Assembly: GCA_902761635.1 (NCBI GenBank)
Contig: CACWLG010000002.1
Location: 1 to 64,000, forward strand
Length of the DNA stretch: 64,000 nt
Direction: 5' to 3'
Source: Oscillospiraceae bacterium
GTDB lineage: Bacteria > Bacillota > Clostridia > Oscillospirales > Oscillospiraceae
The translations under genes were made by a program, and so were the position numbers. Under the pieces are notes generated by a model that did no database searches, was not told where the DNA came from, and saw nothing but the letters and a program-made list of their open reading frames with translations. Positions 26,299-49,940 of the stretch are shown piece after piece. Each line of letters begins with the position of its first letter. The first letter of the stretch is position 1.

Positions 26299-26318
26299 CG
26301 CATACAAGGAGCAGCGAT

Positions 26319-34309: not shown

Positions 34310-34582
34310 GAAAACGGAAAACAGCGATGAGGGAAAATCGCTTCCGAAGGATCGCCACAGAGAGCCGGCGGCTGGTGCGAGTCGGCGCGGGAAACGGAAA
34401 GCGTCTCGTTCCTGAGCGGGATCTGTGAAAGAAATAGTAGCGGATCACGGGAGGCCCCGTTACAGGCCATGGGTTTATTGGAACCCGAGAGAGTCCGCCG
34501 GGCCCGGCGGAAAAAACAGGGTGGTACCGCGAATACAAATTCGCCCCTGAGGTCGCAGTGACTTCAGCGGGCTTTCTTTTTT
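34310..34582 (+). ncRNA. T-box leader, probable leucine (CUC) specifier
   Basis: Class I T-box riboswitch. Stem I contains AGAGAGCCGG with the matching TGCGAGTCGG; the base of the stem pairs ACAG (near 34321) with CTGT (near 34423). In the specifier loop the codon position reads CTC (34405-34407), nine bases before the end of CCTGAG, as in leucine T-boxes. The 14-base T-box AGGGTGGTACCGCG is at 34518-34531, and a terminator with a T-run lies at 34542-34582. Uncharged tRNA-Leu would let transcription continue into the isopropylmalate-synthase-like gene. The specifier call is by position and alignment in my memory, not folding. Confidence 0.92.
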
Positions 34583-34660
34583 ACCGAAAAAGCTCTGCGC
34601 CGCAGGACCGTTCCTCCGATCGGCCCGAACGCCGGGACAGAATCAAGGAGAGTGCATACA

Positions 34661-36076
34661 ATGGACAAAATCCGCGTCAGCGACATTACCATGAAACAGC
34701 TTGCCAGGCAGGGGGACAACAGCCTGAGCTTCAAGGGAAAAATCGAGGTCGCAAAGCTTCTGGACAAGCTTGCGGTCTCTGTCATTGAGATCGAAGGCAT
34801 CCGCTCTGCCCGGGCCGACGCCCTGCGCATCAAGTCCATCGCCTCCGCTGTGAAGGACAGCATCCTTGCCGTGCAGGTGGAGCTGGACGAGCAGAGCGTG
34901 GCGGATACCTGGGAGGCCCTCAAGGGAGCCCGGCACCCGCGCCTGCAGGTCATGGCCCCGGTGAGCACCGTGCAGATGGAGTATCTTTCCCGCAAAAAGC
35001 CGGAAGCCATGCTCGAGACCATCGGGAGCATCGTGCGCGCCTGCGCCGAAAAGACGGAGGACGTGGAATTTCTCGCCGAGGACGCCACCCGCAGCGACGA
35101 GGCCTTTCTCAAGCGCGCCATCGAGTCCGCGATCGACGCCGGGGCGAAGACCGTCACCGTCTGCGACGCCACCGGAGCGCTGCTGCCGGAGGAGCTTGCG
35201 GCCTTCCTCAAAAACCTTCTGGACACGATCCCGGCCCTGCAGGGCGTGACCCTGGGCGTGGCCTGTGCCAACACCATGGCCATGGCGGACGCCTGCTGTG
35301 TGGCGGCGGTGCGCGCCGGTGTGCGCGAGGTGAAGACCGCCTGCGCCGGGGACACCGCCTCGCTGCAGAATGTGGCGGGCATCCTCTCGGCAAGGGAGGA
35401 GCTCTTCGGCGTCACATGTCCCCTGCACACGGTGGAGCTCAAGCGCATCGTGCGTCAGATCGTCTGGATGGTGGAGACCAAGCGCAACAAGACTTCGCCC
35501 TTTGACGACGGGGTGCAGGACACGGCAAAGGAGTTTGCCCTTGCCATCGGGGATGACGCGGTGAGTGTCGCCAATGCCGCGCGGGAGCTGGGCTACGACC
35601 TCAACAGCGAGGATATTCAGGCCGTGTGGGAGGCCGTGCAGGAGCTGCTGCACCATAAGGAGCAGGTCGGCGCGCGCGAGCTCGACGCCATCATCGCCTC
35701 CGTGGCCCTGCAGGTGCCGCAGAGCTATACCATCGAAAGCTACGTCATCAACAGCGGCAGCAATATCTCCGCCATGGCCCACCTGAAGCTCAACCACGAG
35801 GGGGAGATCCTTGAGGGCGTCACCCTCGGCGACGGGCCCATCGACGCTGCCTTCCTGGCCCTTGAGAAGATCGTGAACCGCCACTATGAGCTGGACGATT
35901 TCCAGATCCGCGCCGTCACCGAAGGCCGCGAGGCCATGGGCGAGACGGTGGTGCGCCTTGTGTCCAACGGAAAGCTCTACTCCGGGCGCGGCATCTCCAC
36001 CGACATCGTCTATTCGAGCATTCTGGCTTATATGAATGCGCTCAACAAGATCGTGTATGAGGAGGGTGAGGCATGA
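34661..36076 (+). CDS. 2-isopropylmalate synthase-like protein lacking the usual catalytic motifs
   Basis: A 471-residue HMGL-like protein with a LeuA-type C-terminal regulatory domain (355-465: YVINSGSNIS, LGDGPIDAAF, STDIVYSSILAYMNALN). In true LeuA the barrel starts DTTLRDGEQ and has HCHND for metal binding. Here the first region reads SDITMKQLARQGDN (7-20) and the HxH position is ACANT (201-205), though EDATRSD (140-146) is kept. So the metal site seems absent and catalysis by the standard route is doubtful. ATG 34661 has AAGGAG. It is the first gene after the Leu T-box and overlaps the ligase fusion by four bases. It could be a leucine sensor or an enzyme of altered mechanism. Confidence 0.85.
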   Translation: MDKIRVSDITMKQLARQGDNSLSFKGKIEVAKLLDKLAVSVIEIEGIRSARADALRIKSIASAVKDSILAVQVELDEQSVADTWEALKGARHPRLQVMAPVSTVQMEYLSRKKPEAMLETIGSIVRACAEKTEDVEFLAEDATRSDEAFLKRAIESAIDAGAKTVTVCDATGALLPEELAAFLKNLLDTIPALQGVTLGVACANTMAMADACCVAAVRAGVREVKTACAGDTASLQNVAGILSAREELFGVTCPLHTVELKRIVRQIVWMVETKRNKTSPFDDGVQDTAKEFALAIGDDAVSVANAARELGYDLNSEDIQAVWEAVQELLHHKEQVGARELDAIIASVALQVPQSYTIESYVINSGSNISAMAHLKLNHEGEILEGVTLGDGPIDAAFLALEKIVNRHYELDDFQIRAVTEGREAMGETVVRLVSNGKLYSGRGISTDIVYSSILAYMNALNKIVYEEGEA

Positions 36077-38550
36077 GGCTTTCCTTTTCGACCCGCGGCT
36101 GGCAGTCTCTGGACTGGGAGCAGCTGCTCGAATCCGCCAGAGAGAGCGGCATGAACGGCATTGAGCTCTATGACCTCTATAAGCGTCATGATCTCATCGA
36201 CCGCGGCTGCGCCTTCGACCGCTATCACGCCGCCGCGACGGCCCGGCAGCTCCGGGAAAACGGCATGGCTGTGCCCTGCCTTGACAGCTCCCTCGATCTC
36301 TCCGTGCCCGAAACGGACCCGGAGGGGATCTACAAGCACTTCGAGATCGCAAACGCCATCCGCACACCCTATGTCTCCCTCATCGCTCTGGAGGAGCGGG
36401 AGGACCTGGTGCGGGAGCGCCTGAAAAAGCTCCTGCCGAAGGCGGACAAAGCGGACGTGACGCTGCTCATCAAAACCACCGGCATCTATGCCGACACGGG
36501 GAGGCTGCGCGCTCTGCTGGATGATTTTGCCAGTGACCGCCTCGCGGCCCTCTGGGATATCCACCATCCCTGCCACGACTGCGGGGAGGATGCCGACACC
36601 ACCATCAAAAATCTCGGCGCCTATGTGCGCCATGTGCATATCCGCGACTCGGACGAGTCCGGCGGATACACCGTCATCGGCGAGGGGAGCCTGCCGGTGG
36701 ATGAGATGATCCGCGCCCTCGGCTCCATCGACTACGACGGTTATATCTCCCTCGTCTGGAAGCCGGAGTGGATCGAGGACATGGACGACCCCGACATTCT
36801 CTTCCCCCATTTCGTCAACTACATGAGCCGCTTTGAGAACACCCGCGGCAAGAAAAAGCGCCTCTACCCGAACCACGACGGGACCGGCGAATATGTCTGG
36901 AAAAAGGACGAGCTGCTGGATCTCAACTTCTCCCAGGTCCTCGACCGCATGGTGGAGGAGTTCCCGGACCAGTACGCCTTCAAGTACACGACCCTCGACT
37001 ACACCCGCACCTATGAGGAGTTCCGCGAGGATGTGGACCGCTTCGCCCGGGCCCTGGTCTACCTCGGCGTAAAGCCCGGCAGCAAGGTCGCCGTCTGGGC
37101 CACCAACATCCCCGCCTGGTACATCACCTTCTGGGCCACCGTCAAGCTCGGGGCGGTACTCGTCACGGTGAACACCGCCTACAAGAGCCATGAGGCCGAA
37201 TACCTTCTGCGCCAGTCGGACACCCACACCCTCATCATGATCGAGTCGTGCCTCGATTCCAACTACCGCGCCATCATCAACGAGCTCTGCCCCGAGCTCA
37301 AGGGCCACGACAAGGATAAGCCCCTGCACTGCCGCAAGCTCCCGTTTTTGAGAAACGTCATCACTGTGGATTTTAAGCAGGAAGGCAGCCTCACTTTTGA
37401 GGAGGCCATGTCCCGCGCGGAGCTTGTCCCGCAGGAGACGGTCAACGCCATGGCCGCCCAGGTCAAGCCGGACGATGTGTGCAACATGCAGTACACCTCC
37501 GGCACGACGGGCTTTCCCAAGGGTGTCATGCTCACGCACTACAACGTGGTCAACAACGGCAAGTGCATCGGCGACCGCATGGGCCTTTCCACCGCGGACC
37601 GCATGATGATCCAGGTGCCCATGTTCCACTGCTTCGGCATGGTCCTGTCCATGACCTCCTCCATGACCCACGGGGCCACGCTCTGCCCCATGCCCTATTT
37701 CTCCGCAAAGAGCTCCCTTGCCTGCATCCAGCAGGAGAAGATCACCTGCTTTAACGGCGTGCCCACCATGTTCATCGCCATGTTCAACCACCCGGACTAC
37801 CGCAGGACGGACTTCTCCCACATGCGCACGGGCATCATGGCCGGGGCCGGCTGCCCGCCGGAGCTGATGCGCCGCGCCGCCCGGCCGGACGAGATGAACA
37901 TGCGCGGCATCGTCTCCGTATACGGCCAGACCGAGTCCGCCCCCGGCAGCACCATGTCCGCCTGGACCGACTCCCTGGATGTGCGCACCGACACCGTGGG
38001 CTACGCCTTCCCACACGTGGAGTGCAAGATCGTAGACCCCGAGACCGGGCTTGAGCTCGGCGACAACCAGACGGGTGAATTCTGCTCCCGCGGGTATAAT
38101 ACCATGAAGGGCTATTACAAAATGCCCCGCGCCACCGCCGAGACCGTGGACAGCGAGGGCTGGCTCCACTCCGGAGACCTGGCCGTGCGGGATGAAAACG
38201 GCAACTACCGCATCACCGGACGCCTCAAGGATATGATCATCCGCGGCGGCGAAAACATCTACCCCAAGGAGATCGAGGAGTTTATCTACACCCATCCCAA
38301 GGTGCAGGACGTGCAGGTCATCGGCGTGCCTGACAAGAAGTACGGCGAGGAGGCCTATGCCTGCATCATCCTCAAGGAAGGGGAGAGCATGACCGAGGCG
38401 GAAATGCGGCAGTATATCACCGACCACATGGCCCGCCACAAGGTCCCGCGCTATATCACCTTCACCGACGCCTTCCCCATGAACGCCGCGGGGAAGATAC
38501 TCAAATACAAAATGCGCGAAGAAGCGGCAAAAGCACTGAATCTTGAATGA
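36073..38550 (+). CDS. Fusion of a sugar-phosphate-isomerase-like TIM barrel and an acyl-CoA ligase
   Basis: An 825-residue protein of two parts. Residues 1-255 form a xylose-isomerase-like TIM barrel (MRLSFSTRGWQSLDWEQLLE, NGIELYD, LWDIHHP, YVRHVHIRDS); the usual final metal Glu strand reads ISLVWKPEW. Residues about 285-825 are a full AMP-forming acyl-CoA ligase with YTSGTTGFPKGVMLTH (474-489), YGQTES, HSGDLAVRDENG and the C-terminal NAAGKILKYKMREE. The barrel may bind or modify the acid before activation. The start codon overlaps the upstream stop (ATGA), so both genes are translated together under the Leu T-box. A substrate related to leucine, for example isovalerate, is my inference. Confidence 0.9.
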   Translation: MRLSFSTRGWQSLDWEQLLESARESGMNGIELYDLYKRHDLIDRGCAFDRYHAAATARQLRENGMAVPCLDSSLDLSVPETDPEGIYKHFEIANAIRTPYVSLIALEEREDLVRERLKKLLPKADKADVTLLIKTTGIYADTGRLRALLDDFASDRLAALWDIHHPCHDCGEDADTTIKNLGAYVRHVHIRDSDESGGYTVIGEGSLPVDEMIRALGSIDYDGYISLVWKPEWIEDMDDPDILFPHFVNYMSRFENTRGKKKRLYPNHDGTGEYVWKKDELLDLNFSQVLDRMVEEFPDQYAFKYTTLDYTRTYEEFREDVDRFARALVYLGVKPGSKVAVWATNIPAWYITFWATVKLGAVLVTVNTAYKSHEAEYLLRQSDTHTLIMIESCLDSNYRAIINELCPELKGHDKDKPLHCRKLPFLRNVITVDFKQEGSLTFEEAMSRAELVPQETVNAMAAQVKPDDVCNMQYTSGTTGFPKGVMLTHYNVVNNGKCIGDRMGLSTADRMMIQVPMFHCFGMVLSMTSSMTHGATLCPMPYFSAKSSLACIQQEKITCFNGVPTMFIAMFNHPDYRRTDFSHMRTGIMAGAGCPPELMRRAARPDEMNMRGIVSVYGQTESAPGSTMSAWTDSLDVRTDTVGYAFPHVECKIVDPETGLELGDNQTGEFCSRGYNTMKGYYKMPRATAETVDSEGWLHSGDLAVRDENGNYRITGRLKDMIIRGGENIYPKEIEEFIYTHPKVQDVQVIGVPDKKYGEEAYACIILKEGESMTEAEMRQYITDHMARHKVPRYITFTDAFPMNAAGKILKYKMREEAAKALNLE

Positions 38551-38967
38551 TGCTGCGGGCGGTTTTCGTCAAAAAGGCGAATCTCTTTAAATGGCGAAAG
38601 TTTCTCCTTGACAAATGCACAAATTTGCGGTAATAATTGAGGCAACATTCACAAAGGCTGTGACGAAGACGGCTGAAGGGAAGCGTACACAGAGAGCCGA
38701 CGGATGGTGCGAGTCGGAAACGCCAGCTTCAAATGCCCATCACTTCCGAGCCGGAGACCCGAAAGACGGCAAGTAGGCGTCTCCCGTTCCGCCCGCGTTA
38801 AGGGATAGGGCCTGTTAGGGCCTGAAGCGGCAGCGTCTCGCTGCAATTTGAGTGGTACCGCGGGTTCATGACAGCTCGCCTCAAGTGTTCTTGGGGCGGG
38901 TTTTTTTCATTCCATTTGCATTGTTACCGCAATCAACGATTTCTTTTCAGAAACGGGAGAAAGACTT
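38551..38967 (+). ncRNA. T-box leader, probable isoleucine (AUC) specifier, with its promoter
   Basis: Promoter TTGACA (38608-38613), 17 bases, TAATAA (38631-38636). The leader runs from about 38650 to 38907. Stem I has CAGAGAGCCGAC and TGCGAGTCGG; its base pairs CGGCT (near 38670) with AGCCG (near 38750). The specifier codon position reads ATC (38739-38741), followed by ACTTCCGAG, the spacing seen in the other T-box of this window. The T-box GAGTGGTACCGCGGG is around 38850-38864 and the terminator stem CGCCTCAAG/CTTGGGGCG with seven T residues at 38878-38907. Uncharged tRNA-Ile would open the downstream operon. Specifier assigned by position, not by folding. Confidence 0.9.
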
Positions 38968-41265
38968 ATGAACGTACAAACCGCAGACAATCAGCTTTTG
39001 CAGATCGCCCTCCGTATCCGGGAGCTGCGCGATATCGTCGGCTTTTCCACCCAGGAGATGGCGGCGCGCACCGGCATCACCGAGGAGCAGTACATCGCCT
39101 ACGAATCCGGCCAGGTGGATCTGCCCTTCACCTTCCTGCACAAGGCCGCCATGGCCATGGGGGTCGAGCCGATCCAGCTTCTCGAGGGCCGCAGTGCAAG
39201 GCTGACCTCCTATGCCGTCAACCGCAAGGATCAGGGCCTTGTCACCGCCGTGGAGGACGGTATCGTCATCCAGAACATGGCGGCCCTCTTCCGCAAGAAG
39301 ATGGCTACGCCCTACTGGGTCACCTACCAGTATTCGGCAGAGCTTCAGAACGAGCCCATCCACACCACCACCCACGCCGGGCAGGAGTTCGACCTCATCA
39401 TCAAGGGCACCCTGCGTGTTCGCATCGGCGACCATGAGGAGATCCTGCACGAGGGCGACAGCATCTATTACGACAGCTCCACGCCCCACGGCATGATCGC
39501 GATCGACGGGCACGACTGCACCTTCCTCGCCATGATCATGGCGGCGGACGAGACCGTGCAGAAGCCGGGCCTCGTCCTCGGCGAGGAGGAGGAAGCGGCA
39601 AAGCCCGCCCTCAAGCCCGAGAAGGAGCCGCTGCTGTGCCAGAAGTTCATCGAGGCCGAAGAGGACGCCGCCGGCTGCCTGCGGGATCTGCGCTTCAAGA
39701 ACGAGGACAGCTTCAACTTTGCCTTCGATATTGTAGATGAGATCGCCCGCAAGACGCCCGAGAAGCTCGCCATGCTTCATGTCGCAAACGACATGACCGA
39801 GCGGCGCTTCACCTTCAAGGACATCAAGGACGCCTCCTCCCAGGCGGCCAACTACTTTACCTCCCTCGGCATCAAGCGGGGCGACCGGGTCATGCTGGTG
39901 CTCAAGCGCCACTATCAGTTCTGGTTTGCGATCCTCGGCCTGCACAAGCTCGGCGCCATCGCCATCCCGGCTACAAACCAGCTCCTCTCCCACGACTTTG
40001 AGTACCGCTTCAAGGCTGCCCGCGTGTCCGCCATCCTCTGCACAGCCGACGGTGATGTGGCCCACCAGGCCGAGCTCGGCGAGCAGGCAGCCGGCATGAG
40101 CCTTACGAAGATCCTGGTCGGCGGCCGGCGCGAGGGCTGGCACGATTTCGATTCCGAGTACGGCCTCTTCTCCCGCCGCTATCGCCGGAGCGAGGATTCT
40201 CCCTGCGGGGACGATCCCATGCTCATGTTCTTCACCTCCGGCACCACGGGCTACCCGAAGATGGCCCTTCACAGCTACAAATACGCCCTCGGCCACTACG
40301 TCACTGCCCGCTACTGGCACCTTGTCGAGCGGGACGGCCTGCACTTCACCATCTCCGAGACCGGCTGGGGCAAGGCGCTCTGGGGCAAGCTCTACGGCCA
40401 GTGGCTCTGCGAGGGGGCGGTGTTCACCTATGACTTTGACCGCTTTGACGCGGACAAGATCCTGCCCATGTTCGCCAAATACCATATCACCACCTTCTGC
40501 GCGCCGCCCACCATGTACCGCATGCTCATCAAGAGTGACATTTCCAAGTACGATCTCTCCTCCATCCGCCATGCCACCACAGCAGGCGAGGCGCTCAACC
40601 CCGAGGTCTTCTATCAGTTTGAAAAGCTTACGGGCCTGCGCGTGGCGGAGGGCTTCGGCCAGACCGAAATGACCCTCGGCATCGCAAACCTTGTGGGCGA
40701 GACCATCAAGCCCGGCTCCATGGGCAAGCCCGTCCCCGCCTATGGGGTGGACATCCTCGACCGCGACGGCAAGCCCGTCGAGGACGGCATCAGCGGCGAG
40801 ATCGTCATCAAGGCCGATGAGAACGGCAAGCGCAAGTGCGGCCTCTTCCTCGGTTACTACAACGACGAAGAGCGCACGCGCGAGGTCTGGTACGACGGCT
40901 ATTACCACACCGGCGACGAGGCCTGGCGCGATGAGGACGGCTTCTATTGGTACGTTGGCCGCGTGGATGACGTTATCAAGTCCTCCGGCTACCGCATCGG
41001 ACCCTTCGAGATCGAAAACGTCATCATGGAGCTGCCCTACGTGCTCGAGTGCGGCGTCTCCGCGGCGCCGGACGAGATCCGCGGTCAGGTCGTCAAGGCC
41101 AGCATCGTCCTCGTCCCCGGCAAGGAGGGAACGGATGATCTCAAGAAGGAGATCCAGAACTACGTCAAGCAGCACACCGCACCCTACAAGTACCCGCGCA
41201 TCGTCGAATTCAAGACCGAGCTTCCCAAGACGATCAGCGGAAAAATCATGAGAAACAAGCTGTGA
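38968..41265 (+). CDS. XRE-cupin-acyl-CoA ligase fusion
   Basis: A 765-residue three-part protein. Residues 10-70 are an XRE-type HTH (RIRELRDIVGFSTQEMAART), residues about 115-190 a cupin (HTHAGQEFDLIIKG is the metal/ligand region, with THAGQEF and the HEGDSIYYDSSTPHG end), which is the standard XRE-cupin regulator layout. From 240 onward it is a complete AMP-forming acyl-CoA synthetase (FFTSGTTGYPK near 420, GFGQTEMT, YHTGDEAWRDEDG, GRVDDVIKSSGYRIGPFE, PKTISGKIMRN), of the medium/branched-chain type. A regulator and enzyme in one chain is unusual. It is the first gene after the Ile T-box. The enzyme half probably activates a short branched acid. Confidence 0.92.
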   Translation: MNVQTADNQLLQIALRIRELRDIVGFSTQEMAARTGITEEQYIAYESGQVDLPFTFLHKAAMAMGVEPIQLLEGRSARLTSYAVNRKDQGLVTAVEDGIVIQNMAALFRKKMATPYWVTYQYSAELQNEPIHTTTHAGQEFDLIIKGTLRVRIGDHEEILHEGDSIYYDSSTPHGMIAIDGHDCTFLAMIMAADETVQKPGLVLGEEEEAAKPALKPEKEPLLCQKFIEAEEDAAGCLRDLRFKNEDSFNFAFDIVDEIARKTPEKLAMLHVANDMTERRFTFKDIKDASSQAANYFTSLGIKRGDRVMLVLKRHYQFWFAILGLHKLGAIAIPATNQLLSHDFEYRFKAARVSAILCTADGDVAHQAELGEQAAGMSLTKILVGGRREGWHDFDSEYGLFSRRYRRSEDSPCGDDPMLMFFTSGTTGYPKMALHSYKYALGHYVTARYWHLVERDGLHFTISETGWGKALWGKLYGQWLCEGAVFTYDFDRFDADKILPMFAKYHITTFCAPPTMYRMLIKSDISKYDLSSIRHATTAGEALNPEVFYQFEKLTGLRVAEGFGQTEMTLGIANLVGETIKPGSMGKPVPAYGVDILDRDGKPVEDGISGEIVIKADENGKRKCGLFLGYYNDEERTREVWYDGYYHTGDEAWRDEDGFYWYVGRVDDVIKSSGYRIGPFEIENVIMELPYVLECGVSAAPDEIRGQVVKASIVLVPGKEGTDDLKKEIQNYVKQHTAPYKYPRIVEFKTELPKTISGKIMRNKL

Positions 41266-41301
41266 TCCCTCATGCCTCCCCCAGCTTCTTGCGGTGTCAG
41301 G

Positions 41302-41371
41302 GAGAGGATTCTGACGCGTGGGAAGCGTGCGACATTCCAAGCTCTGCTGACCGCGAAGCGGTGGAAGGGGT
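41302..41371 (+). repeat. Operon-internal repeat, copy 1
   Basis: About 70 bases in the gap after the ligase gene that match 45561-45631 at roughly 60 positions, sharing GCGACATTCCAAGCT and AGCGGTGGAAGGGG. It is preceded by a CCTCCCCC/GGGAGAGG hairpin and ends with a CCGC/GCGG mini-stem; another hairpin (GCTCCCTC/GAGGGAGC) follows at 41402-41420. Confidence 0.75.
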
Positions 41372-41425
41372 CGTATGACCCCCACAGTCGCTGCCGCGAC
41401 AGCTCCCTCAGAGAGGGAGCCAAAG

Positions 41426-42142
41426 ATGAAGGATATTCTTATGAATCATAAACGCTTAACTCTCTTTGCCGGACATTACGGCAGCGGAAAAACCAATATC
41501 GCCCTGAACTATGCCCTCTGGCTCAAGCGGCAGGGGCTGCGGGTAACGGTCGCGGATCTTGACATCGTAAACCCCTACTTCCGCACCAAGGACGGGGAGC
41601 AGCAGCTCAAGGAGGCGGGCGTGCGCCTCATTTCCTCGGACTACGCAAACTCCAACGTCGACCTGCCCGCTCTGCCGGGAGAGGCATACGCTCTCGTGGA
41701 CGACAAGAGCGCCTGCGGCGTCATCGACGTGGGCGGCGACGACCGGGGCGCCCTCGCCCTGGGGCGCTATGTGCCTGCCATCCGGGATGAGGGAGACTAT
41801 GAAATGCTCTTCGTCCTCAACAAGGCCCGACCCCTGACACGCACCGTGGACGATGCGCTGGAGGTCTTCTATGAGATCGAGGCCGCCTGCAGTCTGCCCT
41901 TTACCGCGATCGTGAACAACACGAACCTCGGCCCGCTGACAAAAGCGGAGGACGTGATCGCAGGGGAGGGCTTTGCCGAGGAAGTGGCAAAGCGCGTGGG
42001 ATTGCCGGTCAAGATGAGCTGCGCGTCCGAAAAGCTCAGTGCGGAGCTTCAAAACAAAGTGAGCAATTTCTTTCCTATACAGATCATGCAACTATACTAC
42101 ATGGAGAAAGAAGGAACAAGCCTTGGCAAAACTAACCTTTAG
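41426..42142 (+). CDS. P-loop ATPase (CobQ/MinD-like)
   Basis: A 238-residue nucleotide-binding protein. GHYGSGKT at about residues 16-23 is a deviant Walker A; VADLDIVNPYFRTKDGEQ follows, and GVIDVGGDDRGALALG is the Walker B-like block of CobQ/CobB/MinD/ParA ATPases. An alternative ATG at 41441 with AAGGA is about equally likely. The ferredoxin gene overlaps its end by 20 bases, and such ATPases regularly accompany VOR-type oxidoreductases in gut Firmicutes, so a role in maturation or cofactor loading of the complex is plausible but unproved. Confidence 0.8.
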   Translation: MKDILMNHKRLTLFAGHYGSGKTNIALNYALWLKRQGLRVTVADLDIVNPYFRTKDGEQQLKEAGVRLISSDYANSNVDLPALPGEAYALVDDKSACGVIDVGGDDRGALALGRYVPAIRDEGDYEMLFVLNKARPLTRTVDDALEVFYEIEAACSLPFTAIVNNTNLGPLTKAEDVIAGEGFAEEVAKRVGLPVKMSCASEKLSAELQNKVSNFFPIQIMQLYYMEKEGTSLGKTNL

Positions 42143-42329
42143 AGAGGAAATCTGCAAGGGCTGCGGCCTGTGTGTCGCGGCATGTCCGAAGCAGATCCTG
42201 GCCCTTTCTAAAACCAAACTCAACCCCAAAGGATATTCCCCCGTGGAGCTGACGAAGCCCGAGGAGTGCATCGGCTGCGCAAGCTGCGCCATGATGTGCC
42301 CCGACTGCGTCATCACCGTGGAGCGTTAA
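42123..42329 (+). CDS. vorD: Ferredoxin-type delta subunit of 2-oxoacid:ferredoxin oxidoreductase
   Basis: A 68-residue 2[4Fe-4S] ferredoxin with two complete cluster motifs, CKGCGLCVAACP and CIGCASCAMMCP. It passes electrons between the TPP centre of the oxidoreductase and free ferredoxin. The start is a TTG at 42123 with GAAGGA upstream and overlaps the ATPase gene by 20 bases, indicating translational coupling. The alpha subunit gene begins 17 bases after its stop. Confidence 0.92.
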   Translation: MAKLTFREEICKGCGLCVAACPKQILALSKTKLNPKGYSPVELTKPEECIGCASCAMMCPDCVITVER

Positions 42330-42345
42330 GGAAAGGAGCAGGCGT

Positions 42346-43416
42346 ATGAGTGAAACCGTCCTTATGAAAGGAAACGAAGCCCTCGCGGAGGCCGCCATTC
42401 TGGCCGGCTGCCGCCACTACTTCGGCTATCCCATTACCCCGCAGACCGAGGTCGCAGCCTACATGGCCAAGAAGATGCCCAAGATCGGCGGCACCTTCCT
42501 CCAGGCCGAGAGCGAGATCGCGGCCATCAACATGGTATACGGTGTCGCCGCCACCGGCCACCCGGCCATGACCTCCTCCTCCAGCCCCGGCATCTCCCTG
42601 AAGACCGAGGGCATCTCTTACCTCGCCGGCGCGGATCTGCCCGCTCTCATCATCAATGTCCAGCGCGGCGGTCCCGGCCTCGGCGGCATCCAGCCCTCCC
42701 AGTCCGACTACAATCTTGTCACCCGCGGCCCCGGCCACGGCGACTTCCATGTGCTGGTCTTTGCTCCGGCCTCCGTCCAGGAAATGGCCGACCTCACAGG
42801 CCGTGCCCTGCATCTGGCGTGGAAGTACCGCATGCCCGCCATGCTGTTGGCTGACGGCACCATGGGACAGATGATGGAGCCCGTTACCCTGCCCGAGCCC
42901 TGCAACGCTTTTGGCGACGACAATCCCTGGGCCGCGACCGGCACGGAGATGAAGCGCCCCCACAACGTTGTCAACTCGCTGTATCTCTCCCCGGATGAGC
43001 TGGAAAAGTTCAACTTTGAGCGTTTCGCGCGCTACGCGAAGATCGAAGAGGACGAGCCCCTGTGGGAGGAGTACATGATGGATGACGCCGAGATCTGCAT
43101 CGTGTCCTGCGGCATTACCGCCCGCGTCTCCCGCAATGCCATCGTCGAGGCAAGAAAACAGGGCATCAAGGTCGGCATGCTCCGTCCCATCACGCTCTGG
43201 CCCTTCCCGAAGAAGGCCCTTGCGGCCGCTGCCGATAAGGTCAATGCCTTCCTCTGCGTGGAGATGAACATGGGCCAGATGAAGGACGACGTGGAGCTGG
43301 CGATCCGCTGCCGTAAGCCCGTCGCCCTCTGCAACCGCGTCGGCGGCATGATCCCCACGCCGGACGAGGTGCTTGCGCATATCAAGAAGATCGCAGAAGG
43401 AGGAACTGAAGCATGA
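42346..43416 (+). CDS. vorB: 2-oxoacid:ferredoxin oxidoreductase alpha subunit (VorB-like)
   Basis: A 356-residue alpha subunit. [25 protein letters not shown] at the start, [20 protein letters not shown] and the [16 protein letters not shown] run are the hallmarks of the VorB type acting on branched 2-oxoacids (3-methyl-2-oxobutanoate and relatives), and [13 protein letters not shown] is characteristic. Written in pieces: GYPITP near 26-31, SSSSPG near 77-82. With beta, gamma and delta subunits it interconverts a branched 2-oxoacid plus CoA and acyl-CoA, CO2 and reduced ferredoxin; the reaction is reversible. AAAGGAG precedes the ATG. Beta overlaps its end by four bases. Confidence 0.9.
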
Positions 43417-44150
43417 TCGTGTTTGAAAAGCCCCATGCCCTGACCGACACCCCCCTGCACTACTGCCCGGGCTGCACCCATGGCATCGTGCACCGGCTTG
43501 TCGCCGAGGCCATTGACGAGCTCGGCATCGAGGGCAGGACCGTCGGCATCGCGCCCGTCGGCTGCTCCGTGCTTGCCTACAACTACTTTAACTGCGACAT
43601 GATCGAGGCTGCCCACGGCCGCGCCCCCGCTGTCGCCACCGGCGTCAAGCGCGCCCTGCCCGACAACATCGTTTTCGCCTACCAGGGCGACGGCGACCTT
43701 GCCTCCATCGGCATGTGCGAGACGGTCTCCACCGCAGCTCGCGGCGAAAACATCACTGTCATCTTTATCAACAACGCTATTTACGGCATGACCGGCGGCC
43801 AGATGGCCCCGACCTCCCTGCTCGGCCAGGTCACCCAGACCTCTCCCTACGGCCGCGACCCCAAGACTCAGGGCTACCCCATCCGCGTTTGCGAGCTGCT
43901 CTCTACGCTGGATGCTCCCGCCTACCTCGAGCGCGTCACCGTCAACAACGTGAAGAATGTCCGCAGCGCCAAGCGCGCCATCAAAAAGGCCTTCCAGAAC
44001 CAGATCGACGGCAAGGGCTTCTCGTTTATCGAAGTCCTCTCCGCCTGCCCCACCAACTGGGGCATGACGCCGCAGAAGGCCCTGCAGTGGATCGACGAGG
44101 CCATGATCCCCCAGTATCCGCTGGGTGTGTTCCGGGATAAGGAGGCGTAA
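43413..44150 (+). CDS. 2-oxoacid:ferredoxin oxidoreductase beta subunit (TPP-binding)
   Basis: A 245-residue subunit that binds thiamine pyrophosphate. [13 protein letters not shown] near residues 18-30 and the TPP/Mg motif [13 protein letters not shown] (about 91-103) followed by [18 protein letters not shown] are standard. It starts within the last four bases of the alpha gene, and the gamma gene starts three bases after its stop. It contributes the active-site cofactor for cleavage or reductive carboxylation. Confidence 0.94.
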
Positions 44151-44152
44151 GT

Positions 44153-44692
44153 ATGGCACATCATGAAATCGTGATCGCCGGCTTCGGCGGACAGGGCCTG
44201 CTGTTTATCGGCAAGATCCTGGCCTATGCCGGCCTCGTGGAAAAGCGCCAGCTCAGCTGGCTGCCCTCCTACGGCCCCGAAATGCGCGGCGGCACCGCAA
44301 ACTGCAACGTCATCCTTTCCGATGACCCTGTGGGCTCGCCCATTGTACAGCACCCCAACGTGCTCATTGTCATGAACACCCCCTCCCTCGACAAGTATGA
44401 GAGTGCGGTTGTCCCCGGCGGCAAGATCTTTGTGGACTCCACCCTTATCTCCCGCAAGGTCGAGCGCGACGATGTGGATGTGTACTATATCCCCGCCACC
44501 CAGATGGCCAAGGATCTGGAGCTCGGGAATCTTGCCAACATGATCCTGCTCGGCAGCGTGATCCGCGAGACGAAGTGCATCAGGGAAGAGACCGTGGAAG
44601 AAGCCCTCAGGCACGTGATCCCCGCCCGCAAGGCAAACCTCCTGGAGGTCAACCTCAAGGCCATTCAGGCCGGAAAGGATTACCGCCCGTGA
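44153..44692 (+). CDS. 2-oxoacid:ferredoxin oxidoreductase gamma subunit
   Basis: A 179-residue gamma subunit: [20 protein letters not shown] at the N-terminus and [19 protein letters not shown] are the family signatures (POR gamma domain), and [12 protein letters not shown] is near the end. It completes the delta-alpha-beta-gamma set of a four-subunit oxidoreductase. The stop overlaps the GTG start of the amidase gene. Confidence 0.94.
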
Positions 44693-45474
44693 TCATCGCC
44701 TGCTGCCAGATGGATGTGCGCCTGGGAGACCCCACGTACAACTTTGCCCATGCGGAGGCGCTTGTCCGCAAAGCCGCCGCCGAAGGCGCGGATGTGGTCA
44801 TGCTGCCCGAGACCTGGAACGTCGGCTTTTTCCCGAAAGAGAATCTTGCAGAGCTTGCGGACCCGAACGGGGAGAATGTGCAGCGCCTTTTCGGCACGCT
44901 TGCCAGGGAAGCGCATGTAAACATCGTAGCGGGCAGCGCCGCGACAGTGCGCGGGGAGAAGGTTTTCAACACCGCCTGTGTCTTCGACCGCGAGGGCGCC
45001 TGCGTGGCGGCTTACAACAAGACCCACCTCTTCACCCCCATGGGCGAGCATGATTATTTCACTCCCGGCGATCATCTCTGCTCCTTCACACTGGACGGCA
45101 TCAGGTGCGCGCTCATCATCTGCTACGATCTGCGTTTCCCGGAGCTGACCCGCACCCTCGTCCTGCAGGGGGCCGACCTGCTCTTCGTCCCGGCTGAGTG
45201 GCCCGCTGTGCGCATGCTGCATTGGCAGACGCTCAACCGCGCCCGCGCCATCGAGAACCAGATCTTCCTGGCCTGCTGCAACGGCTGCGGCACGGCGGGG
45301 GAGACGGTGTACGGCGGCCATTCCGCCATCTACGATCCCTGGGGCGAGGTGAAGGCCGAGGCCGGTGCTCAGGAAGAGATCATCCTTGCCGACTGCGACT
45401 TTTCAGTCAAGGAGCAGATCAGAAACAGCATCAACGTCTTCCGGGACAGAAGACCGGAAATGTATCACGTTTAA
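44689..45474 (+). CDS. Nitrilase-superfamily amidase (omega-amidase-like)
   Basis: A 261-residue carbon-nitrogen hydrolase with the Glu-Lys-Cys triad: Glu41 (LPETWN), Lys111 (NKTHLF) and Cys145 (ICYDLRFPE). The closest kind known to me is the Nit2/omega-amidase group, which hydrolyses alpha-ketoglutaramate or alpha-ketosuccinamate, the products of glutamine or asparagine transaminases. That would fit its place between the oxidoreductase and the aminotransferase. GTG 44689 has GGAAAGGA and overlaps the gamma stop (GTGA), so it is coupled to the complex. Other amide substrates remain possible. Confidence 0.86.
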   Translation: MIIACCQMDVRLGDPTYNFAHAEALVRKAAAEGADVVMLPETWNVGFFPKENLAELADPNGENVQRLFGTLAREAHVNIVAGSAATVRGEKVFNTACVFDREGACVAAYNKTHLFTPMGEHDYFTPGDHLCSFTLDGIRCALIICYDLRFPELTRTLVLQGADLLFVPAEWPAVRMLHWQTLNRARAIENQIFLACCNGCGTAGETVYGGHSAIYDPWGEVKAEAGAQEEIILADCDFSVKEQIRNSINVFRDRRPEMYHV

Positions 45475-45476
45475 TC

Positions 45477-45631
45477 CCCTTGTCTCCCCCGGCCGCCTGC
45501 TGCGCTTGGGGAGGGAGACCGCTGATCCCCTTGCCTCCCCCGGCTGCCTGCGGCGTTTGGGGGAGGATGCTGACACGCGGGAAGCGCGCGACATTCCAAG
45601 CTTTGCTGACCGCTTCAGCGGTGGAAGGGGT
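45477..45631 (+). repeat. Operon-internal repeat, copy 2, with tandem hairpins
   Basis: Two similar hairpin units of about 40 bases (45477-45516 and 45527-45567, each CTCCCCCGG...TTGGGGAGG) followed by 45561-45631, which matches the element at 41302-41371. It fills the gap between the amidase and aminotransferase genes inside the Ile T-box operon. Confidence 0.75.
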
Positions 45632-45666
45632 TCTGCCTACAAAACTATATTCAAAGGAGAACCATC

Positions 45667-46752
45667 ATGGACTACAATTTCCCCGTAACCCGCACCACCC
45701 ATCCCAAGCCCCGGCCTGAGGATGAGAGCAAGCTCGGCTTTGCCAAGTACTTCACCGACCACATGTTCGTCATGGATTGGGACGAGGGCCAGGGCTGGCA
45801 TGACGGACGCATCGTTCCCCACGCCCCTATCGAGATCGAGCCCGCTTCCTGCGTACTGCACTATGCACAGATGATGTTTGAGGGCATGAAGGCATACAAG
45901 ACCGCCGACGGTCACGTCCAGCTCTTCCGCCCCGACATGAACATCGCCCGCATGGTCCGAACCAACGAGCGTATGTGCATCCCCGAGCTGCCCGGTGATC
46001 TGTTCCTGGCCGCCGTCAAGGCTGTCATCTGGGAAGACCGCGACTGGATCCCCAGCTCCCCCGGCACGGCACTGTATATCCGCCCCTTCATCTTCGGCGA
46101 TGAGGTCTCCTTCTCCGTTCTGCCCGCCAAGCACTATCGCTTCATGATCATCCTGACCCCGACCGGCTCCTACTACGCGGCCAATGACGGCGGTCTCTCC
46201 ACCACCCGCATCTTCGTGCAGGATACCTATATCCGCGCTGCCCGCGGCGGCACAGGCTATGCCAAGGTCGGCGGCAACTACGGCGGCGGCATGCGCGCCT
46301 CCCTGGACGCCATGAAGTACAACTGCAAGGACGTGCTGTGGCTGGACGCGGCCGAGAACAAGTACGTGGAAGAGATCGGCACCTCCAATGCCTTCTTCCG
46401 CATCAATGACGAGGTCATCACTGCCCCCCTGGATTCCGGCACGATCCTGCCTGGCATCACTCGCAACTCCGTCATTCAGCTCCTGAAGAAGTGGGGCGTC
46501 AAGATCTCCGAGCGCAAGCTCTCCATCGACGAGATCATCGCCGCCTCCAAGAACGGCACCCTGCAGGAGATCTTTGCCTCCGGCACCGCCGCCGTCATCT
46601 CCCCGATCGGCTGCCTGAACTACAAGGGCACCGACTACAAGGTGGCGGACGAGAAGGTCGGCCCCGTGGCCCAGAAGCTCTACGACACGATCTACGGCAT
46701 GCAGACCGGCAAGGTCGAGGACGACATGGGCTGGACCTACAAGCTGTTCTGA
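45667..46752 (+). CDS. ilvE: Branched-chain amino acid aminotransferase
   Basis: A 361-residue PLP enzyme of fold type IV that interconverts Leu, Ile and Val with their 2-oxoacids using glutamate. The catalytic lysine is Lys200 in YAKVGGNYGGG; VLHYAQMMFEGMKAYK, YIRPFIFG and TSNAFFRIND are family marks of the eukaryote-like BCAT2/IlvE type with full length. It ends the operon (a terminator follows), with the repeat at 45477-45631 and an AAAGGAGA site upstream. In context it would aminate the 2-oxoacid formed by the oxidoreductase. Confidence 0.95.
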   Translation: MDYNFPVTRTTHPKPRPEDESKLGFAKYFTDHMFVMDWDEGQGWHDGRIVPHAPIEIEPASCVLHYAQMMFEGMKAYKTADGHVQLFRPDMNIARMVRTNERMCIPELPGDLFLAAVKAVIWEDRDWIPSSPGTALYIRPFIFGDEVSFSVLPAKHYRFMIILTPTGSYYAANDGGLSTTRIFVQDTYIRAARGGTGYAKVGGNYGGGMRASLDAMKYNCKDVLWLDAAENKYVEEIGTSNAFFRINDEVITAPLDSGTILPGITRNSVIQLLKKWGVKISERKLSIDEIIAASKNGTLQEIFASGTAAVISPIGCLNYKGTDYKVADEKVGPVAQKLYDTIYGMQTGKVEDDMGWTYKLF

Positions 46753-46771
46753 TCGATAACCCATAAAAAAT

Positions 46772-46806
46772 TGCTTCCCGTTCACATCGAACAGGAAGCA
46801 TTTTTT
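46772..46806. terminator. Bidirectional terminator of the Ile T-box operon and ogt
   Basis: A 12-bp stem with one bulge (TGCTTCC near 46772-46778 with GGAAGCA at 46794-46800), flanked by AAAAAA and TTTTTT. The last codons of the converging ogt gene lie within it. Confidence 0.88.
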
Positions 46807-47297: not shown

Positions 47298-47978
47298 TTA
47301 TTCTATCACCTCGTCAAACTCTCTTGCGCGCAGCCCCATGACGCTTGAAATCGGCAGGGAAAAGCAGATCCCGTGCGCCTCGGTCGCAGGCCCGGCCTTT
47401 GCGGCGATGGCCTTCATGACGGCGGCTTTTTCACTCTTGTGAGCGACAATATAGAGCATGTCCTTTTCAGCGGCAAAGCGGACGCTGAAAAACTTTTCGC
47501 CCCGCGCACTGCCGGTGCCCTTGGCGTGCAGCACGGTGCCTCCGCCGGCCCCGGCTTCTCTGCCTGCGTCCATGGCAAGATCCGCAAAGCCGGCGTCGAG
47601 CACGACTACAATCAGCTCATATTCAAAATCCATTGTCGGCGTCCCTCCTGTGATTGCGCTGTCAGTCAGATAAGCCAGCGTTTGTTGTCCGGCTACAGCC
47701 TTGATGGGAATGGCGGCCAGAATACCGTTGCCGGGGATGTCCATATACAGCATCTTTCGCGCAAGCTTAAAGATCATCTGCTGCTGGGATGCGTTGGCGA
47801 CAGCGGCAACAATGCGTTTCTCGGTCTGGGCCAGCCCGTAGCGGGCCAGAATATCATGCCCGGCGGTCCCATGGGCAGGCTGGCTGTAGCCCACAACGGT
47901 TCCGGCTGTTCGGAAGACCCCTTCGAGCTTTTTCTCCTTTTCACGGTCAACCACCGCGATCAATTGATACAGTTCCAT
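47298..47978 (-). CDS. Tandem PII-like regulatory protein
   Basis: A 226-residue protein made of two PII-like (GlnB-fold) halves: residues 2-108 (YQLIAVVDREKEKKLEGVFR...VANASQQQMIFKLA) and 117-215 (YELIVVVLDAGFADLAMDAGREAGAGGGTVLHAKG). The second half has the GTVLHAKGTG stretch where PII proteins have the T-loop base. PII proteins sense ATP/ADP and 2-oxoglutarate or related ligands and act on transporters. It starts three bases before the end of the DUF1538 membrane gene region, so the pair forms a likely sensor-transporter unit. The ligand is unknown. Confidence 0.82.
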   Translation of the reverse strand: MELYQLIAVVDREKEKKLEGVFRTAGTVVGYSQPAHGTAGHDILARYGLAQTEKRIVAAVANASQQQMIFKLARKMLYMDIPGNGILAAIPIKAVAGQQTLAYLTDSAITGGTPTMDFEYELIVVVLDAGFADLAMDAGREAGAGGGTVLHAKGTGSARGEKFFSVRFAAEKDMLYIVAHKSEKAAVMKAIAAKAGPATEAHGICFSLPISSVMGLRAREFDEVIE

Positions 47979-47980
47979 AC

Positions 47981-49498
47981 TCAGGCAATCTCCCAGAGTT
48001 CAATGATCTCATCCCCGCCGCCGAAGACAACGGGCGCTTTCCTGCGGGACTTGATTACAAAGACCGCGCCCATACCCTGCACGGTGATCAGCGGCATCAT
48101 CGCCACCATGGACACAAGACCAAAGGCGTCGGCCATCACATTGCCGCCCAGCGTCCGGGAGGCGCCCATGGCAAAGAGCAGCATGAAGGTCGCCGTCAGC
48201 GGGCCGGAGGCCACGCCGCCGGAGTCAAAGGCGATGCCTGTAAAGGTGGGCGGGACAAAGAAGCTCAGGGCAAGCGCAGCGGCATAACCCGGAATCAGAT
48301 AATACAGGATCGGGATTCCTGTGAGCACGCGCACGAGAGCCAGCGCGTTGCCCATTGCCACCGCGAGGGAGAGACTCAATTCCATGGCCTTTTCGCTCAC
48401 GGCCCCGGCTGTCAGCTCCTCGACCTGCTTGGTCAGCACATGTACCGCAGGCTCCGCCTGAATGATATACCAGCCCATGAGCATGGAAAGCGGAATCATC
48501 ATCCAGCGCCAGCGGCTGATAGCGATCATGCCGCCCAGCGTCTCACCCAGGGGAGAGAAACCCACGTTCACGCCCGTGAGAAACAGAACCAGGCCCGCAT
48601 AGGTATAGACGATGCCGACAATGATCTGCGAAAAGGGCTTGCGGCGCAGCCGAAGCGAAACCACCTGAAACAGGAGGAAGAACGCAAAAATGGGCAGCAG
48701 CGCCAGGGCCATTTCCCGGAGATAGGTGGGGAAGGCGGCAATATAGCCGTCACCGACGGCTGTCGTTGTAAGAAAGTTGGGGAGAGGCTTGAGCGCTGCT
48801 TCGCCGTTTTCGGGCTTGAAAATGAGGCTCAGCAGCATGACGGCAATGACCGGTCCCACCGAGCAGAGGGCTACCAGACCGAAGCTGTCCTCCTTGGCCC
48901 GCCCGTCGCTGCGGATGGAGGAGACGCCGACGCCGAGCGCCATGATAAAGGGCACCGTCATCGGCCCGGTAGTGACGCCGCCCGCGTCAAAGGACAGGGG
49001 CAGCATATCCGGCTTCAGGAAAAAAGCCAGCAGGAACACAATACCGTAGAGAACGAGCAGCATGGTGCGCAGGGAGATCGCAAACAGGATGCGCAGCATG
49101 GCAAGCGCGAGAAAGAGCCCCACGCCCGTCCCCACAGTCAGCAGCAGCACAGGGTTCGAGATGCCCGGCACGTTGGAGGCCAGTACCTGCAGATCCGGCT
49201 CTGCCAGGGTGATGGCGGTGCCGAGCAGGAAGCTTGTCAGAAAAATCAGCCAGAGCTTTCGCGACGCAGTCATGGCTGAGCCGATATGCCCGCCGATTTT
49301 CGACATGGACAGGTCCGCCCCCACGGAAAACAGCCCCATGCCGATGATCATATGTACCGCGCCCAGCAGAAAGGCCAGCATCAGGCCGGACGGAATGGGC
49401 ACGAACAGGAAGCACACCACGGCAACGATGACCGTGATGGGCAAAATGGAATTGATGGACTCCTGTATTTTTTCAATCAGGAGGTTATGATGGATCAT
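47981..49498 (-). CDS. DUF1538 membrane protein with internal duplication
   Basis: A 505-residue protein of about 12-14 helices. The two halves repeat: AEPDLQVLASNV (99-110) parallels AEPAVHVLTKQV (348-359), FDAGGVTTGPMT (170-181) parallels FDSGGVASGPLT (424-435), and FSVGADLSMSKIGGHIG (57-73) parallels VGFSPLGETLGGMI (312-325). This is the DUF1538 family, polytopic proteins commonly next to PII-like proteins. An inverted- or direct-repeat transporter is likely. ATG 49498 has GGGAGGA five bases upstream and is preferred over a GTG at 49519. Substrate unknown. Confidence 0.85.
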   Translation of the reverse strand: MIHHNLLIEKIQESINSILPITVIVAVVCFLFVPIPSGLMLAFLLGAVHMIIGMGLFSVGADLSMSKIGGHIGSAMTASRKLWLIFLTSFLLGTAITLAEPDLQVLASNVPGISNPVLLLTVGTGVGLFLALAMLRILFAISLRTMLLVLYGIVFLLAFFLKPDMLPLSFDAGGVTTGPMTVPFIMALGVGVSSIRSDGRAKEDSFGLVALCSVGPVIAVMLLSLIFKPENGEAALKPLPNFLTTTAVGDGYIAAFPTYLREMALALLPIFAFFLLFQVVSLRLRRKPFSQIIVGIVYTYAGLVLFLTGVNVGFSPLGETLGGMIAISRWRWMMIPLSMLMGWYIIQAEPAVHVLTKQVEELTAGAVSEKAMELSLSLAVAMGNALALVRVLTGIPILYYLIPGYAAALALSFFVPPTFTGIAFDSGGVASGPLTATFMLLFAMGASRTLGGNVMADAFGLVSMVAMMPLITVQGMGAVFVIKSRRKAPVVFGGGDEIIELWEIA

Positions 49499-49511
49499 AA
49501 AATCCTCCCGC

Positions 49512-49940
49512 TTATTCACCGTCCTTTTTGATCTCCACGGTCATGCCGTCGGCCTCGGTTGCGCTGACCACGTCGTCAAAATCGCCGATCTCCACGTCGA
49601 TGTCGTTCTGATCGGTAAGGCCGGAGCTTTCCTTGAGCGCTTCGATCCTGGCCCGCCGCTCACGGATGCCGTCGCTGATACGGCCTGCCTGCTCAAAGAG
49701 CGGAACAAAGACGCCCTCGGGCGCCGCCGTGTGCTGCTCGTAGTAGAGCTGCCCGATCTCGGCGTAGATGCGCTTGAGCTCCTCCTGCTCCCGGCTCAGC
49801 TCCACCGTGAGCTTCGTAAGCTTTCCAAAGGCCCTGGCGCGGTTTGCGCCCTGGGCATACACGTCCATCACGCCGCTGGACTCCGCCGCGTCCTTGACCT
49901 TGTCGGCGAGCTTTCCCAACAGCTCCTTATAATCCGCCAT
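49512..49940 (-). CDS. Small coiled-coil protein of unknown function
   Basis: A 142-residue soluble protein rich in helix: residues 1-100 contain heptad-like Leu/Ile spacing (MADYKELLGKLADKVKDAAE, VELSREQEELKRIYAEIGQLYYE), and the tail (115-142) is acidic and probably disordered. I know related proteins in Firmicutes beside lgt or wall genes, but none with an assigned function. ATG 49940 has a GAGGAGGAATC upstream site and lies within the last codons of lgt, so the genes overlap by 14 bases and are translationally coupled. Confidence 0.65.
   Translation of the reverse strand: MADYKELLGKLADKVKDAAESSGVMDVYAQGANRARAFGKLTKLTVELSREQEELKRIYAEIGQLYYEQHTAAPEGVFVPLFEQAGRISDGIRERRARIEALKESSGLTDQNDIDVEIGDFDDVVSATEADGMTVEIKKDGE

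Follow-up and report, generated by a model that had tools for sequence, protein, structure and literature searches.

What does an operon built around VOR do behind a T-box for isoleucine? The question is raised by the window analyzed here, a 64,000-nucleotide stretch of an Oscillospiraceae bacterium (positions 1 to 64,000 of contig CACWLG010000002.1, assembly GCA_902761635.1), in which a T-box leader with an isoleucine (Ile) specifier precedes genes for an acyl-coenzyme A (CoA) ligase, VOR and the aminotransferase IlvE. T-boxes switch genes on when the cognate amino acid is short, and VOR is a reversible enzyme whose operons are commonly read as catabolic. Sequence comparison makes it highly probable, in our judgment, that this operon is the isoleucine arm of a system building branched-chain amino acids from branched short-chain acids. 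Gut bacteria that seem to be without the textbook IlvC/IlvD route appear to rebuild isoleucine, valine (Val) and leucine (Leu) from such acids, with a ligase of its own for each acid that would be turned on when the corresponding amino acid is scarce. A leucine unit at 34318-38550 and a valine-type ligase paralogue elsewhere in the genome would make the isoleucine operon part of a three-amino-acid system.

The leader (38651-38886, plus strand) matched the T-box covariance model RF00230 over the whole model, with E values of 2.4e-17 in a 701-base search and 2.9e-17 genome-wide. It lies behind a sigma-70-like promoter (38608-38637, TTGACA-18-AATAAT; one found against a shuffle mean of 0.2) and holds the specifier AUC at 38739-38741 and a UGGN antiterminator core at 38850-38863; an intrinsic terminator at 38873-38902, consisting of a 13-pair hairpin and a T run, frames it on the other side. 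Two results speak against the call: its 78.8 bits fall below the Rfam gathering score of 93, and plain free-energy folding gives no T-box fold and does no better than for shuffled sequences (z -0.41). The terminator hairpin does show in that fold, and five T-boxes of the same genome that stand before cognate genes (tyrS, two pheS, alaS and thrS) also score below the gathering threshold. The leader is filed as a T-box, despite its score, by its other features, and support for the call comes from the covariance model and from conservation, not from free-energy folding. Specifiers were read by a rule of three letters, one letter, five letters and GAG, applied at the site that lies 92-102 bases from the start of each leader. 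The RF00230 search detected ten T-boxes in the genome, including the isoleucine and leucine leaders of the window, and in all eight outside the finding the rule returned the expected codon: TGG for trpD and for a TrpB-like gene, TAC for tyrS, TTC for both pheS genes, GCC for alaS, ACC for thrS and GTC for valS, which sits behind a YcxB gene. A preliminary description of this DNA had proposed an isoleucine T-box with a probable AUC specifier; the specifier is borne out by the reading rule, and the fold it looked for did not emerge from free-energy folding. Antitermination by uncharged tRNA-Ile is proposed for this leader. Among the control T-boxes, that for valine (GUC) lies 9 kb past the window before the YcxB-like gene and valS (L079:8978-12341; contig C2 of the window's genome, G000, from 72978), and the two pheS genes, each with a phenylalanine T-box (L007 and L010; contigs C11 and C124), reflect either contamination of the draft genome (4.7%) or a paralogue.

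Behind the leader all genes run on the plus strand. The first, lig1 (38968-41265), is by Pfam and NCBIfam a fusion of helix-turn-helix (HTH, residues 16-73), cupin (134-188) and acyl-CoA ligase (257-759) domains and is the proposed 2-methylbutyrate-CoA ligase. It is followed by a P-loop NTPase gene (about 41441-42142), by VorD, a 2x[4Fe-4S] ferredoxin subunit read as an open reading frame with a TTG start (42123-42329), by VorB (42346-43416; 525.5 bits to NF005507, cut-off 399), by the thiamine-diphosphate subunit VorA (43413-44150) and the gamma subunit VorC (44153-44692), by a nitrilase-superfamily (CN-hydrolase) amidase resembling omega-amidase, with a GTG start (44689-45474), and by a type II branched-chain aminotransferase, IlvE (45667-46752), over the cut-offs of TIGR01123 (357.7 versus 250) and NF009897 (444.4 versus 307). 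The enzyme is assigned to VOR by VorB over its cut-off together with the beta, gamma and ferredoxin subunits; VorA, VorC and the ferredoxin were recognized through Pfam, and VorA and VorC score under their NCBIfam cut-offs. Gene content and direction are thus as first described. The overlaps claimed at that time exist between P-loop and VorD, VorB and VorA, and VorC and amidase, but gaps of about 175 bases 3' of the ligase and 192 bases 5' of IlvE separate the outer genes. The amidase matches the CN_hydrolase family of Pfam and Nit2 (2w1v, 135.9 bits), with no NCBIfam model over cut-off, and may act as an omega-amidase. The P-loop gene is grouped with the VOR genes, and no name could be obtained for its protein from sequence alone. 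Its predicted model (mean predicted local distance difference test score, pLDDT, 79.9) is nearest HypB and signal recognition particle-type NTPases, at template-modelling scores of 0.44-0.58 by query length; as a guess from this model, it could be a VOR maturation factor.

In the pathway we propose, isoleucine shortage would leave tRNA-Ile uncharged, which would hold the AUC T-box in its antiterminator form and allow the operon to be transcribed. The ligase lig1 would convert 2-methylbutyrate to 2-methylbutyryl-CoA, VorDBAC would carboxylate this reductively with ferredoxin and CO2 to 2-oxo-3-methylvalerate, and IlvE would aminate the product to isoleucine, with the amidase possibly pulling the amination by removal of the oxo-amide, should glutamine donate the amino group. 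VOR and IlvE would be shared: they would serve valine from isobutyrate activated by the paralogue that has a valine T-box in relatives, and leucine via the ligase lig0 behind the leucine T-box, with one ligase and one tRNA per acid. It is from the genes and leaders that we infer the ligase substrates, the direction of VOR, the switching of the T-boxes and a flow of label from acid to amino acid. The earlier idea of a dedicated, isoleucine-regulated route from acid to amino acid gains support, by inference, from the isoleucine specifier, the 2-methylbutyrate type of the ligase, the missing IlvC and IlvD, and a valine paralogue split from lig1 at residue 468. The leucine unit and this paralogue, which widen the picture to three amino acids, do not figure in that earlier idea.

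The solved structure nearest lig1 by sequence is 3ETC, the ligase MacsMa of Methanosarcina acetivorans (618.6 bits, lig1 residues 245-762). According to the parts of PMC10455477 used here, MacsMa prefers 2-methylbutyrate as acyl substrate and adenylates a broad range of acids, and the Trp of acetyl-CoA synthetase is replaced in it by Gly, with Trp259 filling its place. All 153 ligase rows of the alignment described below carry the equivalent Gly564 and Trp450, the latter matched to Trp259 by a hand count from the 3ETC alignment with a numbering offset of one. MacsMa and lig1 are alike in the ligase domain and in these acyl-pocket residues, and activity of lig1 on 2-methylbutyrate, and hence a shared preference, is proposed; MacsMa differs in being archaeal and in matching the ligase half alone, without HTH-cupin. 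The top NCBIfam match of lig1 is MbcS of Staphylococcus aureus (NF047394) with 432.2 bits, about half the equivalog cut-off of 850, so that lig1 is not filed as MbcS though it may work like it. According to the abstract of PMC10026030, MbcS is active on 2-methylbutyrate and isobutyrate, with poor activity on isovalerate, and channels the first two into fatty acids. Similar substrates are proposed for lig1 and the valine-type paralogue, and the poor activity on isovalerate agrees with the leucine arm having a third ligase from a different subfamily. The fatty acid role of MbcS, together with its place as best NCBIfam match, suggests an alternative in which the acyl-CoA primes branched-chain membrane lipids and amino acid synthesis is secondary. 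T-boxes specific to amino acids, VOR and IlvE in the operon and the missing IlvC and IlvD speak for amino acids instead, and no gene of the operon matched a fatty-acid synthesis family in Pfam or NCBIfam; we give the lipid explanation a very small chance.

A more specific indication of substrate comes from the agreement of specifier, clade and one pocket residue. The ligase rows were drawn from the window and from loci L041-L065 and L087-L166, requiring that at least 75% of lig1 be covered and that the match start no later than its residue 30. Loci L066-L078, whose ligase matches are unfused or weaker, were excluded. Loci L087-L166 are the best 80 from a scan of named genomes with at least 593 matched stretches, 586 of them encoding a relative, and many of the 80 are incomplete because the contig or the 10 kb flank ends within them. 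Specifiers were assigned by a scored rule, five labels being set by hand before the tree was made (L092 Ile; L112 and the second copy in L045 Val; L057 and L166, for which the script gave other codons, none). This yielded 78 isoleucine, 34 valine and 41 unlabelled rows. On the FastTree tree a single Ile/Val change suffices for the 112 labelled rows; when the unlabelled rows are added as a group of their own, 25 changes are needed, compared with a mean of 64 after shuffling. At residue 468, 78/78 isoleucine rows have Gly and 34/34 valine rows have Ala, and this is the sole ligase-domain position in the ranked position list without overlap between the two types; among unlabelled rows it is Gly in 21, Ala in 18, and Met and Leu in one each. 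It aligns with Val310 of Escherichia coli acetyl-CoA synthetase, a residue that we take to line the pocket for acetate. Position 468 was chosen from the same rows, so the Gly/Ala split is not an independent test, but its location in the pocket is one. Ala468 would be expected to make a smaller pocket for isobutyrate, and Gly468 a larger one for 2-methylbutyrate. Six positions of the HTH-cupin half (59, 96, 97, 102, 116 and 120) also split isoleucine from valine rows without overlap, which suggests that this half discriminates the two types as well, and cupin residues His136, Glu140 and His174 occur in 153/153 rows. These patterns bear on another possibility, that ligase and VOR act on different substrates, such as aryl or straight-chain acids, and are merely under isoleucine control. 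The assigned substrates are indeed putative and MacsMa accepts many acids (PMC10455477, in the part consulted), but the Gly/Ala split tracks the specifiers and the nearest enzymes favor small branched acids, leaving this very improbable, below the other alternatives considered.

The valine-type paralogue of the window's own genome (contig C42) is a second HTH-cupin ligase, 57% identical to lig1. In relatives G027 and G037 it stands behind a T-box leader that reads GUC; in G049 and G054 inspection by eye found a remnant or none. Another relative, G081, has three T-boxes in succession, with specifiers CUC, AUC and GUA. Near the ligase with the valine T-box in G027 are TRAP transporter genes (DctM and DctP, L063:147-3072), a possible means of acid uptake.

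The leucine unit lies directly upstream of the isoleucine operon, also on the plus strand. Its T-box leader (34318-34551; specifier CUC at 34405-34407) scores 114.4 bits in cmscan, over the gathering score, and precedes LeuAx (34652-36076), which resembles 2-isopropylmalate synthase, and lig0 (36073-38550), in which a TIM barrel (AP_endonuc_2) is fused to an acyl-CoA ligase according to Pfam and NCBIfam. Read from the leucine T-box, lig0 is proposed to be an isovalerate-CoA ligase. Aligned to 3rmj, LeuAx of the window has Gln for the metal-ligand Asp and Ala for both His, at residues which we take to be the metal-binding residues of LeuA. Among 26 LeuAx rows, by eye, all have lost the first His of the expected His-x-His, and 25 each have lost its second His and the Asp, so that LeuAx lacks the ligands that define 2-isopropylmalate synthase; the mean majority share in the same alignment is 0.74 in the LeuA_dimer part, which is kept, versus 0.57 in the barrel. 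A leucine specifier was found upstream of 18 of the rows, no T-box in six, and the script misread two (L112 and L127) that show CTC on direct reading. LeuB is over cut-off in 1/21 carriers, with weaker matches of up to 147 bits in 15 others, but the cut-off is reached by merely 9/14 control genomes, which counts against giving the LeuB result weight by itself. A working isopropylmalate synthase was rejected on the lost ligands and, weakly, on LeuB. Because the metal ligands are lost, LeuA_dimer is the better conserved part and LeuB is mostly under cut-off, LeuAx is read instead as a probable non-catalytic partner, perhaps leucine-sensing. It is conceivable, though on present indications doubtful, that each ligase is read out at two levels, by a T-box that responds to the cognate tRNA and by a protein sensor of the end product, the LeuA_dimer of LeuAx, as a retired enzyme, passing leucine feedback to lig0 and HTH-cupin doing likewise for isoleucine and valine in lig1-type ligases, which this half could also make self-regulating DNA-binding proteins.

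The gene set is not confined to this genome. The best 80 named loci bear titles of metagenome-assembled or uncultured genomes, named as Clostridia, Oscillospiraceae, Ruminococcus and similar, and many titles name ruminant gut samples. Relatives carry a triad, namely an isoleucine T-box with an MbcS/Macs-like ligase, a valine T-box with the paralogue, and a leucine T-box with the LeuA-like protein and the third ligase, often with VOR and IlvE alongside. Across the 80 loci VorA, VorB and VorC together were counted in 52, the P-loop gene in 59, IlvE in 40, LeuAx in 35, lig0 in 29 and the amidase in 10. An isoleucine T-box precedes a ligase in 63 loci, 30 loci have one for valine and 24 have the two together; a leucine T-box stands before length-filtered LeuAx in 12, and seven have all three kinds; two of the leucine labels were set by hand. 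When the window's genome and its relatives were searched, 33/99 genomes matched the ligase at E <=1e-100, six of them among the 61 genomes of the genus and the other 27 including unfused ligases, and the VorB model matched in 99/99, over cut-off in 75. At class level, 61/196 genomes at least 90% complete, the window's genome apart, match the ligase at 1e-200. Some weaker ligase homologues with internal stops (G263, G190, G247, G070, G093 and G065) are perhaps separate HTH-cupin and ligase genes, or broken ones.

The preliminary description proposed looking for ilvA, ilvC and ilvD in the rest of the genome, and the two covered here, ilvC and ilvD, came out in its favor. De novo synthesis, taken as IlvC plus IlvD, is missing from the window's draft genome, which has no IlvD match and a lone IlvC match of 23.1 bits, far below cut-off. 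Both enzymes are also missing at curated cut-offs from 41/50 named carriers (the first 50 of the best 80 loci in rank order; the union was counted by hand), in which the control IleS was over cut-off in 47/50 and matched in 50/50. At class level IlvC is present in 9/41 genomes with a full fusion versus 104/155 without (Fisher p 2.6e-7, kinship ignored), the carriers being hand-picked full-length fusions with E < 1e-270 and G188 (truncated), G190 and G263 (broken) being counted among genomes without. In 38 order-level relatives, counted by hand, the figures are 2/15 with and 14/23 without (p 0.006, kinship ignored); two of these 15 fusions (G061 and G074) have an in-frame stop. The distribution argues against a catabolic operon, in which IlvE and VOR would oxidize isoleucine to 2-methylbutyryl-CoA and the reversed ligase would yield ATP and 2-methylbutyrate. 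That reading draws on the reversibility of VOR and on the usual interpretation of its operons, but most carriers lack IlvC and IlvD at cut-off, AMP-forming ligases usually run toward acyl-CoA, T-boxes turn genes on at shortage of an amino acid, and the other eight T-boxes of this genome precede tRNA-ligase genes (one behind YcxB) and trp genes. A catabolic role is therefore very improbable, while ranking first among the three alternatives.

Supply of isoleucine from 2-methylbutyrate, which we prefer, has its own difficulties, and the following weigh against it. The window's genome is 85.8% complete and 4.7% contaminated. IlvC is over cut-off in 8/50 and IlvD in 8/50 named carriers (union 9), and seven more carriers have IlvD-like matches below cut-off, in one case split in two alongside an IlvC; on a lenient count that includes these matches, 35/50 carriers lack both. 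IlvC is retained by the 9/41 class-level carriers mentioned above, and the congener G049, itself a carrier, has IlvD over cut-off. Within the genus IlvC is over cut-off in 1/61 genomes, though the ligase is present in just 6/61; as IlvC is rare there and most of these genomes are without the ligase, loss of IlvC cannot by itself be taken to indicate this route, and genomes without either may be auxotrophs or users of another ligase. For 41/153 ligase rows the script detected no T-box, some being second genes or on cut contigs, some pattern misses and some apparently truly without. The paralogue leader of the window's genome (L061; ligase start near 10590, minus strand) has no stem I and by eye retains promoter, antiterminator core and terminator, possibly a decayed or rewired control. 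Lastly, VOR is reversible and often catabolic, and the case is built on sequence. The leaders, the operon and the ligase split are its main supports, and because these carry it, the lenient count of 35/50 and the weak LeuB result leave our estimate unchanged.

The chemistry itself has been known since the 1960s. Rumen anaerobes were reported to carboxylate isovalerate, 2-methylbutyrate and isobutyrate reductively for leucine, isoleucine and valine, respectively (Allison 1966; Robinson and Allison 1969; Allison and Peel 1971, as cited in a passage of PMC7356843). The chemistry proposed here is the same, and many of the best 80 loci also come from ruminant gut samples; unlike those reports, a gene set is put forward in which every acid has a ligase of its own and every ligase its cognate T-box. 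The riboswitch class is equally familiar, and T-box control of branched-chain biosynthesis is described for Bacillales and Clostridia in the parts of Wels 2008 (PMC2494555) consulted. Those systems and the present operon have in common branched-chain supply genes under T-boxes, whereas here VOR and ligases are controlled and IlvC and IlvD were not found. By passages and term counts, the main text of two T-box surveys (PMC2494555 and PMC3766115) is silent on VOR, on ferredoxin and on CoA ligases, and the titles and abstract openings listed in full-text searches of open-licence papers did not yield T-boxes joined to VOR or branched-acid ligases, although earlier mention is possible; the gene set and its control scheme were thus not found described. 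If the proposal is true, it offers a testable gene basis for rumen bacteria feeding on branched short-chain acids, and specifier and residue 468 would form a readable code predicting from a genome which acid becomes which amino acid. Genomes without IlvC and IlvD may then nevertheless need no external amino acids, which advises caution in labelling them auxotrophs or their VOR operons catabolic.

Two neighboring regions may be recorded. Shortly past the isoleucine operon, genes for P-II-like and DUF1538 proteins adjoin on the minus strand (47298-49519). The region 25420-28040 encodes a 292-residue protein whose catalytic domain is that of 2-oxoacid dehydrogenase acyltransferases, adjoining another acyl-CoA ligase.

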